From positions 1-41,113 of IMG/VR virus record IMGVR_UViG_3300044714_000138: 41,113 nt of DNA, one strand, 5' to 3'. The position numbers and the translations under genes are program-made. The first letter of the stretch is position 1. Each line of letters starts with the position of its first letter. The stretch is from a virus. Of the stretch, positions 6,438 to 41,113 are shown piece after piece. The notes under the pieces are model-generated. The model made no database searches. It saw nothing but the letters and a program-made list of their open reading frames with translations, and was not told the DNA's origin.

Positions 6438-6443
6438 TTAGGG

Positions 6444-6514
6444 CTCCCCTGAGCGCACTCGAACCGCTGCGCTGGCGAAAACGATCACCGCTCTACCGTC
6501 TGAGCTACAGGGGA
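6444..6514 (-). tRNA. tRNA-like element, probably degenerate
   Basis: The minus strand folds as a tRNA outline: a 7-bp acceptor stem (TCCCCTG with CAGGGGA), TA, a perfect D stem (GCTC/GAGC) with AGACGGTA loop, and GGTTCGA at the T loop. Defects are visible. The anticodon stem GGTGA/TCGCC closes a 6-base loop, the T stem has a G-G mismatch at its top, and the 3' end reads GCCC and not NCCA. No anticodon can be assigned. It may be a decaying tRNA or a tRNA mimic. Confidence 0.5.
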
Positions 6515-6516
6515 AT

Positions 6517-10508: not shown

Positions 10509-11924
10509 TTAGTCAGATGCTCCTTTTCCATCTTTAAAAACCAACTTTAGTTCATTATCATCTTGATGGAATTGCTTCCATGTTTGATTTTGTAAGCACT
10601 GATAATTACCATTGTTATCTTTAATAACTTTTAGCAATCCGCTATGTGATTTCTTTGTGCCATCATCCGTTTTGGGATCTTTGGTAATAGCCCTACCAAC
10701 TCCATTAATCTCGCAATAAGTGGCTTTTACAGCCCATCCTAGTGTATCGCGAGTATTATACTGATAAGTATAACTTCCAATACCGAAAATAATGTTAGTG
10801 CTCGCAAATCCTTTTTGCTTTAATCCTTCACAAATAGCCTCGCATCGCTCTAAAGTAATTGAGTCACCATATATAGCGCCAATATGTGGGTCTAGTTCTT
10901 TATAACCTTTGTTATTAATAGTGCCTCCAAATATTTCCCATAAGCATTTTATTAATCCTTTGGATTCGGATGTATCTGGATCAGGAATGGAATAATCACC
11001 GCAAATAATTTTTACTGGATCACCACTATCGGGTCGAATGACAACTTTTCCGTTGCGCGACATGATCTTATCTTTTAAAAATGGCAGTATATTATCAACA
11101 ACATGCCACAAATCCCAAGTATCACTGACAATACTAACAATACCGGAAGGGTAAATATCCTCAATAAGTCTGCGATATGTCTCATGCTCATCTTCTTTTC
11201 CTCCTGCGCTCATTACGCTATGTTCAGTAGCAGGAACACTAGTACCACATGATAACTGATTATCATAATATCGATGCCTAAATAAAATGGCCGGAATAGT
11301 ATCGGTACCCTTAAAATATTCAAGATGCGCAGCCCCCGACATCATTGCAGCTTCCAGGCCATACATTCCCCTAAAACTAAAATCATGAGCCTGATAATCA
11401 ACAAATTCTGGGCAACTGGATGTCTCGATAGCATACTTATCAAGCAATAAACGATATTCGCGAGCTATTGTGGCGCTAGTGCATGGCCCCCATAAGGTGC
11501 ATGACAATATAGTTTCTAACATATTAGTAAGCCAGTAAAACTCTGGCTTTGTATTAAACATAACAAGAGCAGGAACTCCTGATGGTACAACAGCCCCTTC
11601 AGGTAAGGCATAAATAGCTAATGGCAGAAATCCCTGATGGTGCAACTCATAAATATGAGTATGCATTCTAGATATACCTAAAGTTTCCTTGATCACATAA
11701 TGATAATTAAGATGCCCTAATCCATTGAAAAACTTCTTGAATTGCTCTATTAAATATTCATTAATAAAATATCTTAATCCAAAAAATACCGAATGGTTTA
11801 CCCCTGGCATCCTTGATTTTCTAGGAGTGAAATTACTAAATACTAATTCAGTTCCTTTAGGATATTGATCAACATGTCCAACCTTATAAAAGTCTTTTAG
11901 TAAACAAGGATTAACATACATCAT
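10509..11924 (-). CDS. Nicotinamide phosphoribosyltransferase-family enzyme (NadV/Namat type)
   Basis: 471 aa, the usual NAMPT length. Conserved blocks: HDFSFRG (about 180-186), SVPATEHSVM (229-238, holding the catalytic-type His 235), SDTWD (267-271), IRPDSGDP (296-303, phosphate binding), GDSITLERCE and a GIGSYTYQ loop, then KDPKTDDG. NAMPT joins nicotinamide to PRPP to give NMN. In phage NARP1, a NAMPT-family enzyme (Namat) instead uses ADP-ribose pyrophosphate to give NAD+ directly. The gene overlaps the PRPP-synthetase-like gene by one base (TAATG), and no NMN adenylyltransferase is encoded nearby, which favours a NARP1-like role. Confidence 0.92.
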   Translation of the reverse strand: MMYVNPCLLKDFYKVGHVDQYPKGTELVFSNFTPRKSRMPGVNHSVFFGLRYFINEYLIEQFKKFFNGLGHLNYHYVIKETLGISRMHTHIYELHHQGFLPLAIYALPEGAVVPSGVPALVMFNTKPEFYWLTNMLETILSCTLWGPCTSATIAREYRLLLDKYAIETSSCPEFVDYQAHDFSFRGMYGLEAAMMSGAAHLEYFKGTDTIPAILFRHRYYDNQLSCGTSVPATEHSVMSAGGKEDEHETYRRLIEDIYPSGIVSIVSDTWDLWHVVDNILPFLKDKIMSRNGKVVIRPDSGDPVKIICGDYSIPDPDTSESKGLIKCLWEIFGGTINNKGYKELDPHIGAIYGDSITLERCEAICEGLKQKGFASTNIIFGIGSYTYQYNTRDTLGWAVKATYCEINGVGRAITKDPKTDDGTKKSHSGLLKVIKDNNGNYQCLQNQTWKQFHQDDNELKLVFKDGKGASD

Positions 11925-12727
11925 TAAATCACCTTAAATTGAGTTATGCGCGGAATGAAAAGATCTTGGTAACTATTTGTACAATATATATGATCGAAAT
12001 ACTCTAAAAGAGTATTTATCCCATTAGTAAATAAGCCATGCGCTACAAACAAGTCCAATGGAGTATTAGGAAAATGTTCTTTGAAGCATTTAGCATCAGC
12101 AATAAATGTTCCTCCTGCATCACATAAATCATCAACAATAATCGCATGATTAATTTTTTCTAATTCGCTTTTTATATAGTGTTTACTTTCATCATCAAGA
12201 GTAACCACGATATTATCTCTTCCTTTTCGATATTTAGTAAAATGACCGATCTTTGCGCCAAAATCTATATTATTAGTATGCTGATCCCCTCCTATTATAA
12301 CACCTTCTATTTTTTTATTTGTTATATGATAAATATCCAATAAACTAGCATTATTAATTGCTTTTAAACTCAAATCACTATGAGGAGAAAAAATACCAAT
12401 ACTTTCAATATTTAATGAATTTATAATATTAGAAACAACATCCCTAAAATAATTAGGCTCACCAGGATTAAAAGCTCTATCAGAGCGCATTCCCAATAAA
12501 TAAATAATTTCCAATCTATAAATATAAAAATCATGCTTCCTAAGCGCGGAAACCAAGCACAATAAATATTCCAATGCTGCAAAAGAAGTTATTCTGCATT
12601 TAATTGCCACCAACTCTTTAACATCAAGGTTACTCAAATCCAGACGTAAACTACGCTGACCATCCGGATAAAGAATATGTTCCGCTACAGCATCACATTC
12701 AAAATCTTTTAATATTATTGTTTGCAT
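11924..12727 (-). CDS. PRPP-synthetase-family pyrophosphokinase (candidate Adps)
   Basis: 267 aa, shorter than housekeeping PRPP synthetase (about 315). Seen: LLGMRSDRAF (77-86, ATP-loop equivalent), FSPHSD (113-118), YRKGRDN (166-172) and the phosphoribosyl loop IIVDDLCDAGGT (196-207). The family transfers pyrophosphate from ATP to a ribose 5-phosphate. In NARP1, the homologue Adps acts on ADP-ribose. Tight coupling to the NAMPT-family gene suggests a dedicated two-enzyme path. Whether the substrate is ribose 5-phosphate or ADP-ribose cannot be read from sequence alone. Confidence 0.85.
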   Translation of the reverse strand: MQTIILKDFECDAVAEHILYPDGQRSLRLDLSNLDVKELVAIKCRITSFAALEYLLCLVSALRKHDFYIYRLEIIYLLGMRSDRAFNPGEPNYFRDVVSNIINSLNIESIGIFSPHSDLSLKAINNASLLDIYHITNKKIEGVIIGGDQHTNNIDFGAKIGHFTKYRKGRDNIVVTLDDESKHYIKSELEKINHAIIVDDLCDAGGTFIADAKCFKEHFPNTPLDLFVAHGLFTNGINTLLEYFDHIYCTNSYQDLFIPRITQFKVI

Positions 12728-12739
12728 TTTGCTTTATCC

Positions 12740-13054
12740 TCATTGCTTAACAGCTTGATCAGCTTCTAGTTTAACTGCTTCAGCATAAATTTTAGCCAGT
12801 TCATTTTTTAATAATGAATCAATATTTGATCCCACTAGATTACTCAACCTTTCAAGCATCCTCATTCTAAGGTGTTCCACTAATCCAATAGTATGATGGA
12901 CAGTCATCTCGCCACCGGCAAGGATTAATTCCCCATCATGGTTATACCCCATGAATATAAAATGACAGTCTTTACCTGTTTCAATAAATTCAATCATTTT
13001 ATTCATTGCATTTTTGTATTTATCTTGATCGTCATTAGTCTTTTCATTGCTCAT
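12740..13054 (-). CDS. Hypothetical protein upstream of the NAD pair
   Basis: 104 aa. A charged N-terminus, a central beta segment (CHFIFMGYNHDGELILAGG), then a helical C-terminal half (LVEHLRMRMLERLSNLV). It lies 12 bases before the PRPP-synthetase-like gene, same strand, so it is co-transcribed. No family recognised; an accessory role to NAD metabolism is only positional inference. Confidence 0.6.
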   Translation of the reverse strand: MSNEKTNDDQDKYKNAMNKMIEFIETGKDCHFIFMGYNHDGELILAGGEMTVHHTIGLVEHLRMRMLERLSNLVGSNIDSLLKNELAKIYAEAVKLEADQAVKQ

Positions 13055-13152: not shown

Positions 13153-13338
13153 TTAATTGATAACTAATGCCATATTTTCTCTTATCATCATTTGTTCAGT
13201 TTTTTTTAAGCAATGATTACACTGATAACGATGGATTTTACGATACTCTTTCGAGGCACCTGATCCTAAAGAAATAAAACGATATTTAATATCTTTTCGA
13301 TAATCGTGTATGCCGAGTCTACATAATAATTTTCGCAT
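13153..13338 (-). CDS. Small zinc-finger protein (DUF1660-like), first gene of the early operon
   Basis: 61 aa from the ATG at 13338, preceded by GGGAGAG; the frame is open to 13377. MRKLLCRLGIHDY at the start and CNHCLKK later give the C..H...C-x2-C pattern of DUF1660-type prophage proteins, also found in the last gene of the operon. It is the first gene after a strong promoter at 13414-13442. Confidence 0.65.
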   Translation of the reverse strand: MRKLLCRLGIHDYRKDIKYRFISLGSGASKEYRKIHRYQCNHCLKKTEQMMIRENMALVIN

Positions 13339-13413
13339 TATTCTCTCCCAAACATACACAAAATCGACAATAACCACTTACTTCTACTGCCGAACGGCAT
13401 TTGTGTAATTGTG

Positions 13414-13442
13414 ATGATATCTAAAGCAACTGATAATGTCAA
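13414..13442 (-). promoter_or_regulatory. Early minus-strand promoter
   Basis: TTGACA (13442-13437), 17-bp spacer, TATCAT (13419-13414) on the minus strand, close to sigma-70 consensus. It points at the operon that runs from 13338 through the NAD pair to the lysis genes. Immediately upstream of the -35 is a segment similar to the one upstream of the RHH promoter at 5966. Confidence 0.7.
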
Positions 13443-14077: not shown

Positions 14078-14293
14078 ATGTCTATGAATCCAATTCAAGA
14101 ATTATTAAAAAAAACCGGACTCAACCAATCCGAACTTCAACGAGAGCTAGGATTAAAAACAGTAACCACTGTCTGGCGCTGGGTCAACGAATGGGATAAG
14201 TATATCCCCAGCTATAAAAATCAAACCCTGTTGATCACAATAGCTAAAAAATATGGCATAAATTTAACTTATGACGATTTAAGTAAAAGATAG
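14078..14293 (+). CDS. Helix-turn-helix transcriptional regulator (Cro/XRE-like)
   Basis: 71 aa. LLKKTGLNQSELQRELGLKTVTTVWRWV (about residues 9-36) fits a lambda-repressor-like HTH, followed by a second helical part (LLITIAKKYGINLTYDDL). Cro size, no dimerisation or cleavage domain. It lies downstream of the two-palindrome promoter and is probably autoregulated through it. Confidence 0.7.
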   Translation: MSMNPIQELLKKTGLNQSELQRELGLKTVTTVWRWVNEWDKYIPSYKNQTLLITIAKKYGINLTYDDLSKR

Positions 14294-16899: not shown

Positions 16900-16974
16900 T
16901 GCGAAGTACGTCAATGGCAGACTATTAGGCTCATAATCTGATTGTAGATGGTTCGATTCCATCCTTCGCTACCA
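16900..16974 (+). tRNA. tRNA with anticodon CAT (Met or Ile2)
   Basis: Complete cloverleaf with encoded CCA. Acceptor TGCGAAG/CTTCGCT (first pair T-T mismatched), TA, D stem GTC/GAC, anticodon stem TTAGG/TCTGA (two wobble pairs) with loop CTCATAA (anticodon at 16932-16934), variable TTGTA, T arm GATGG-TTCGATT-CCATC, then ACCA. It lacks the three G-C pairs of initiator tRNA. With CAT it is either elongator Met or an Ile2 whose C34 is modified to read ATA, useful in an AT-rich genome. It is on the plus strand, opposite its neighbours. Confidence 0.9.
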
Positions 16975-40048: not shown

Positions 40049-41113
40049 TTAAAGAGGGAATAGCAATCGCTGACTATTAGGGGCATATAAAGTTGAGCCC
40101 CAAATAACATCGCGGACATAAGCTAGGGCGTTTAATCCAAACCCTTGCGAACCCCAGTAATGCCGAATAGAACACCCTGAATCTTTATCAACAGTAGTTA
40201 CTGTTTGATAAGGGTTTTGATCAGGTAATGCAGGCATTGCCAAATAGAACTGATCACCCGACATAAAGCATCCAGCTCGATGAGACGGCATAACAGTTAC
40301 TTGCATACCGGCTGCCAAGGCATAATTGATATTTTGATTTTGGTTTTGTACCCAAGTTAATCCTTGACCGGCACCACCAGCACGCAAACTAACAACAACA
40401 TTACCGGAGCCATCAGCACCTGCATTTGCTATTGCTACAAATTGAACTTTTTGTTGACAGACTTGATGACCAATGTATTGCAAAAAGCGCAAATTAGGTT
40501 GATTCATAACGCCATCATTAAATTCAAATAAATCACCCACCTTAATTGCATTGGCATCATTAGGAGTAGCGCCGCTAAAAGTAATTTGAGTAACATTAGT
40601 ACCGCTGGGATCATTAACAGAAACAATCGTTAATACATTTCCACCGCTACCTGTATTACCTACAGTTCCAGCATAATGCACAGGGAGCAAGTTGGATTTA
40701 ATCCACATTGCATCACTGAAATCGCCCAATTCCCAATAATTATCAATTTGATTATTTCGATCAGTAGCAAATTGAGTTAAACCAGAACCAATAATTTGCG
40801 GAACGCTTACGACGGGAATAAAACCCATTCGTTTATTTTTAGCTGAGCCATAATCGTCATAATTTGCTACAGCTTGCGCCAACTGAGTAAATGAATTAAT
40901 AGGACTTAAGGTTGCACCGGATAATCCAGCATAATAAAACCGATAAGGTCCTGAAGAAGATTGAACCTGACCGTATGTTGAGCCTTGCGGATCATTAGCA
41001 ACTACGCCACTCACAAAGTTTTTAGCTACATCCGACTCAATAGCTGAACCTAACTCTTTAATGGCAGCTTCATCGAAGCGATCCATATATGACCGGGCAT
41101 TAAATATAAATTG
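40049..41113 (-). CDS. Major coat protein, C-terminal part (P22 gp5-like), cut by the window edge
   Basis: Open frame running in from the right edge and ending at 40049; it is the continuation of the gene that starts at 406. An internal ATG at 41086 is not the real start. The segment contains an insertion-like stretch rich in Gly, Asn and Thr about a third of the way in, plausibly the insertion (I) domain that P22-type coat proteins carry. The gene lies between scaffold and a decoration-like protein. It is expected to be the most abundant virion protein. Confidence 0.8.
   Translation of the reverse strand, partial: QFIFNARSYMDRFDEAAIKELGSAIESDVAKNFVSGVVANDPQGSTYGQVQSSSGPYRFYYAGLSGATLSPINSFTQLAQAVANYDDYGSAKNKRMGFIPVVSVPQIIGSGLTQFATDRNNQIDNYWELGDFSDAMWIKSNLLPVHYAGTVGNTGSGGNVLTIVSVNDPSGTNVTQITFSGATPNDANAIKVGDLFEFNDGVMNQPNLRFLQYIGHQVCQQKVQFVAIANAGADGSGNVVVSLRAGGAGQGLTWVQNQNQNINYALAAGMQVTVMPSHRAGCFMSGDQFYLAMPALPDQNPYQTVTTVDKDSGCSIRHYWGSQGFGLNALAYVRDVIWGSTLYAPNSQRLLFPL
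40987..41113. repeat. Terminal direct repeat closing the circle (right copy)
   Basis: Exact copy of bases 1-127. Joining the copies restores one uninterrupted coat-protein gene of about 447 codons, which is the best evidence that the ends are contiguous in the real molecule. Confidence 0.95.

Follow-up and report, generated by a model that had tools for sequence, protein, structure and literature searches.

A probable NARP1 module for NAD+ reconstitution in the complete genome of a podovirus-type phage

Two overlapping genes of an uncultivated phage, one resembling PRPP synthetases and the other the NAMPT family, raise the question of what their products make together. They could rebuild NAD+ from ADP-ribose and nicotinamide, as in the NARP1 system, or form NMN in a simple salvage route. 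We conclude that the gene pair is very probably a NARP1 module. This assignment is based on the architecture of the locus, the clade membership of both proteins, their conserved residues, the fold of the Adps protein and the absence of an NMN adenylyltransferase from a complete genome; the two reactions and the counter-defence role are inferred from published work on relatives.

The window, by which we mean the whole stretch of DNA analysed (41,113 nucleotides), is an entire IMG/VR record. Its first 127 bp are its last 127 bp (positions 1-127 and 40987-41113, a direct repeat), and the coat-protein gene is continuous across the joined ends. The identical terminal repeat and the gene that spans the join show that the genome is complete, at 40,986 bp, and either circular or circularly permuted. 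The lack of an NMN adenylyltransferase is therefore meaningful. IMG/VR labels the record ends linear, against the terminal repeat. PHROG matches to a portal protein (phrog_156), head closure and DNA ejection proteins, terminase, Sak4, a replication initiator and a GH108 endolysin suggest a P22-like podovirus; over its first 25 kb the window has no close DNA match in INPHARED. Two tRNAs are called by ARAGORN, one at 6441-6515 (minus strand) whose two-base anticodon is unreadable and a tRNA-Met at 16900-16974 (plus strand), the tRNA-Met opposite in strand to the surrounding genes.

The pair lies in an accessory early region between the replication and lysis genes, within a putative transcription unit of its own, whose features are as follows.

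10509-11924, minus strand: namat, predicted nicotinamide ADP-ribose transferase, 471 aa; clamp residues R38, Y385, Y389, T391 and D393, catalytic H235.
11924-12727, minus strand: adps, predicted ADP-ribose pyrophosphate synthetase with a PRPP-synthetase fold, 267 aa; R81/D83, H116, K165/R167, PRPP loop DDLCDAGGTF (199-208) and variant PP loop GDQHT around D148.
12740-13054, minus strand: orphan ORF, 104 aa, probably co-transcribed with adps; its 3' end is 12 bp before adps.
13153-13377, minus strand: ORF of 74 aa with a GTG start, first gene of the putative unit with adps and namat; no Pfam match.
13414-13442, minus strand: sigma-70-like promoter, TTGACA-17-TATCAT (11/12), ahead of the putative unit; consensus match only.
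14115-14133, minus strand: terminator-like hairpin with an eight-T run that would close the upstream VRR-NUC/replication operon; consensus match only.

The one-base overlap given in the preliminary description for the genes of 267 and 471 aa holds: adps (12727-11924) and namat (11924-10509) share base 11924 (...gatttaATGatg, i.e. TAATG), and Shine-Dalgarno-like sequences precede both. The promoter is suggestive only, an equally good match occurring in 24 of 200 shuffles (12%) of the 1.6-kb region.

By its sequence the 471-aa protein certainly belongs to the NAMPT family, as had been proposed: it matches NF006629 (549.9 bits) and PF04095 (157 bits), and its best PDB match, far ahead of human Nampt, is the crystallised Namat of Bacillus phage SPbetaL1 (9W5X, E=1e-158; 52% identity). 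What distinguishes Namat from Nampt is an adenine clamp (Lan et al., PMC12774641). One part of the clamp is a helix with the motif GSX(T/S)X(Q)X(N)TRD, in which residues 3 and 7 are aromatic; the other is a stacking residue in a variable loop, R40 in SPbetaL1 (PMC12774641). The clamp helix of the window protein reads GSYTYQYNTRD, with Y385 and Y389 as the aromatics, and the stacking residue of its clamp loop is R38. When we mapped 21 residues, i.e. 20 crystal contacts and the catalytic His, 19 were identical; the differences, F392Y and A362S, also occur in other Namats, such as that of ICP1. A Nampt-like catalytic core is present as well (D11, Y13, F182, R185, D208, H235, R297 and D299). In contrast, the adenine-binding aromatics are absent from the human, Xanthomonas and phage Nampts examined, and at the clamp-helix position the Nampts of human, Xcc and the NadM-linked phages carry Gly-rich sequences such as GGGLLQ or GGALLQ; residue mapping revealed no GGGLLQ-type helix in the window protein. 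In a maximum-likelihood tree of 78 sequences (a quick tree with SH-aLRT support and without bootstrap), the split between Namat and Nampt has a support of 100 and the window protein lies on the Namat side, where it forms a clade (100) with proteins of four metagenomic phages (L002, L017, L018 and L019). This clade groups (85) with that of SPbetaL1, KKP_3916 and Staphylococcus phage K. Adps accompanies Namat at 75 of the 80 viral Namat loci.

For the 267-aa protein, HMM searches alone make a modest case for the PRPP-synthetase family (phrog_619 at E=6e-32 from the single sequence; NF002095 at 43 bits, far under the cut-off). The proposed family membership becomes firm with the predicted structure: in Foldseek, the best 50 PDB matches of the AlphaFold2 model (pLDDT 92.4, pTM 0.88) are PRPP synthetases without exception, with E=5e-12 to a Prs. 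At the time of the January 2026 paper, no structure of an Adps was available. A profile that we built from the other Adps separates poorly, the window protein scoring 164.5 bits and E. coli Prs reaching 143.9 bits, and we therefore dropped it as a discriminator and used trees and signature residues for the assignment. In a tree that includes 12 Prs (E. coli, Bacteroidota and archaea), the Adps/Prs split has an SH-aLRT of 100 and the window protein falls on the Adps side. It keeps the catalytic positions R81, D83, H116, D148, K165, R167, D199, D200 and T207. A Phe directly after the PRPP-loop Thr, F208 in the window, is found in every aligned Adps (128/128; 87 viral and 41 bacterial), and this position is Leu, Ile, Val or Met, never Phe, in the Prs examined. 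We found no published statement of this regularity; the residue appears to be a marker of Adps and is not proven as a determinant. Tree, signature residue and Namat partner together support the identification of the window protein as an Adps. Both enzymes thus cluster by sequence with Adps and Namat rather than with Prs and Nampt, and the Namat clamp motif is present, which bears out the NARP1-like reading of the preliminary description; the clustering with Prs and NadV that it had named as part of a refuting outcome was not observed, both splits having an SH-aLRT of 100.

These assignments bear on plain NMN salvage, in which a PRPP synthetase and a Nampt or NadV would form NMN and a host NMN adenylyltransferase would complete NAD+. 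An NMN adenylyltransferase had been said to be invisible anywhere in the genome, and indeed PF01467, which matches all 14 control genomes, has no match at E<=1 in the complete genome. The records of the four nearest phages lack a PF01467 match as well. Three sampled phage Nampts (L178, L182 and L183) adjoin a NadM gene. Although the first enzyme has a PRPP-synthetase fold, the Adps profile score is poorly separated from that of Prs and the characterised Namat keeps some PRPP activity, the clamp is wholly present, both trees place the pair outside Prs and Nampt, and the partner gene found beside the sampled phage Nampts is missing here. We consider salvage scarcely credible as the function of the pair, and rejected it on the clamp residues, both trees and the missing adenylyltransferase. 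It may nonetheless occur as a side activity of the module, since Namat also produces some NMN from PRPP in vitro (PMC12774641).

The NARP1 assignment suggests a route by which the phage would withstand NAD+ depletion. Immune NADases with TIR, SIR2 or SEFIR domains would cleave NAD+ and leave ADP-ribose; Adps would transfer pyrophosphate from ATP onto ADP-ribose to give ADPR-PP, and Namat would combine ADPR-PP with nicotinamide to give NAD+ directly, without an NMN step. In other words, the phage would recycle the waste of NAD+-depleting immunity into NAD+, so that the cell would still support replication. Relatives of the two enzymes form NAD+ in vitro and give protection from KomABC and SPARSA (PMC12774641), NARP1 of SPbetaL1 and of Paenibacillus having been co-expressed with such systems in laboratory E. 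coli. In Vibrio phage ICP1 the corresponding pair, NrsAB, increases NAD+ in the course of infection and defeats Nezha. By analogy, counter-defence is the likeliest purpose of the module. The same chemistry might instead serve as a general NAD+ booster for replication, as the chromosomal Namat and Adps relatives of Bacteroidota and the position of the module among accessory early genes could suggest. However, the pathway requires ADPR, which builds up when NADases act, and the ICP1 pair is costly in the absence of a NADase defence; we regard a purpose other than countering immunity as unlikely.

NARP1 is already established as a system, and the window is, on its sequence, clearly another member. 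The new part of the finding, as judged from the alignments, is a variant clade of Adps, long-stemmed in the tree (1.42 changes per column for the window stem) and made up of the window, L002, L017, L018, L019 and the later-found L208 and L209. P147 and G150 of the PP loop, PDxGA, are shared by 122 of the other 124 Adps and by E. coli Prs, a regularity found in this analysis rather than a published definition, and both are lost in all members of the clade. The loop reads GDQHT in the window and (G/A)Dx(S/H) in most members; in addition, the flexible loop has lost its TG and NY(F/M)RD has gained a residue. The catalytic His is retained in the window (H116). All seven members pair with an intact, clamp-bearing Namat. 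The podovirus-type contigs form one clade in the Namat and Adps trees alike, and adps and namat therefore travel as a pair. The conservation of the pattern within the clade favours a stable variant over decay. Synonymous sites are saturated, which precludes an estimate of selection; dN between L002 and L017 is about 0.33. Two of the Adps, at L002:3467-4294 and L017:3189-4004, have Phe in place of the nearly invariant catalytic His, each beside an intact Namat. A shortened Adps of the variant clade (119 aa) occurs at L217:4956-5315, with Namat absent from the fetched stretch, and is perhaps a decayed module.

Such remodelling could mean that the Adps of this clade has changed substrate, e.g. 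to another ADP-ribose derivative, or works less well. The replacement of PDxGA in most of the clade, the extra residue, the lost TG and the change of His to Phe in L002 and L017 would fit this idea. Yet every other catalytic residue is kept, the window retains H116, the non-synonymous divergence between L002 and L017 is modest, and Namat with its clamp is unchanged, so that the product must still suit ADPR-PP; we find a changed or impaired enzyme quite improbable. To the more specific proposal, that the Adps rebuilt at the PP and flexible loops has another ADP-ribose species as the substrate that it phosphorylates, or works by an altered chemistry, we give very little credence. If it were true, NARP1 would extend to an immunity product that the standard Adps cannot recycle. 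These proteins form a natural group whose PP loop differs, which makes them useful for learning how Adps recognises ADP-ribose.

Comparison with known systems places the NARP1 module of the window more closely. SPbetaL1 NARP1 (Namat structures 9W5W and 9W5X) has the same adps-namat order and overlapping genes, its Namat is 52% identical to that of the window with all NAD+ contact positions conserved, and its Adps belongs to the same clade as the window Adps. The two Adps, however, share only 24% identity, the PP and flexible loops being remodelled in the window, and the small 41-kb podovirus-type genome differs from the large SPbeta phage. ICP1 NrsAB comprises the same two enzyme families with the same clamp motif, and its Namat is about 47% identical to that of the window, but its genes do not overlap. 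In ICP1, nrsB is reported to have a stop at Y29 in many isolates, whereas the gene is intact in the window; the namat ORF of one ICP1 isolate (L176:2648-3967) starts late, consistent with this stop. The Nampt and NadM modules of Caulobacter phage Ccr34 and Brevundimonas phage Domovoi resemble the window in the fold and Nampt-like catalytic core of the second enzyme, but lack the adenine clamp and Adps and have an adjoining NMN adenylyltransferase. Clamp-bearing chromosomal Namat relatives, 57-61% identical to the window protein, occur in many Bacteroidota (L096-L175), with a full-length Adps within 4 kb at 41 of the 80 loci. We tested whether Namat might be a housekeeping gene of Bacteroidota and dropped the idea, a close Namat being found in only 8 of 198 sampled Bacteroidia genomes.

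With this assignment, NARP1 is located in a phage genome that is both complete and compact and that comes from an uncultivated lineage. The analysis also yields two markers of practical use: the Namat clamp, already known, and the Phe that follows the PRPP-loop Thr and sets every Adps examined apart from Prs. Database labels on both enzymes, ribose-phosphate pyrophosphokinase and nicotinate or nicotinamide phosphoribosyltransferase, conceal the system.

An extra small gene near the NARP1 operon is a feature that the window shares with mycobacteriophage DyoEdafos (NARP1 with RyDEP). In DyoEdafos this gene encodes a RyR-domain glycosidase, whereas neither an RyR-domain (PF02026) nor a macro-domain (PF01661) gene was matched in the window. 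The 104-aa ORF had been put forward as a possible partner of the two enzymes. Its position alone favours this; INPHARED, IMG/VR and the fetched loci contain no homologue, and the ORF matches nothing in Pfam, PHROG or NCBIfam and is absent beside NARP1 in the four nearest phages (L002, L017, L018 and L019), which leaves the suggestion unsupported. A single-sequence model of the ORF is poor (pLDDT 54.6). An RNA ligase gene (PF09414) directly follows namat at L002:5707-6525, and a putative RtcB-like protein, read by eye, lies near NARP1 at L019:350-1516. Several annotated phages (L014, L015 and L179) likewise have RNA-repair genes close to the module. Just upstream of NARP1, L018:64-1644 and L002:246-1010 hold ORFs with short tandem repeats, HLASHVASHVA-like and GDAVGDAV-like, which can be read on both strands.
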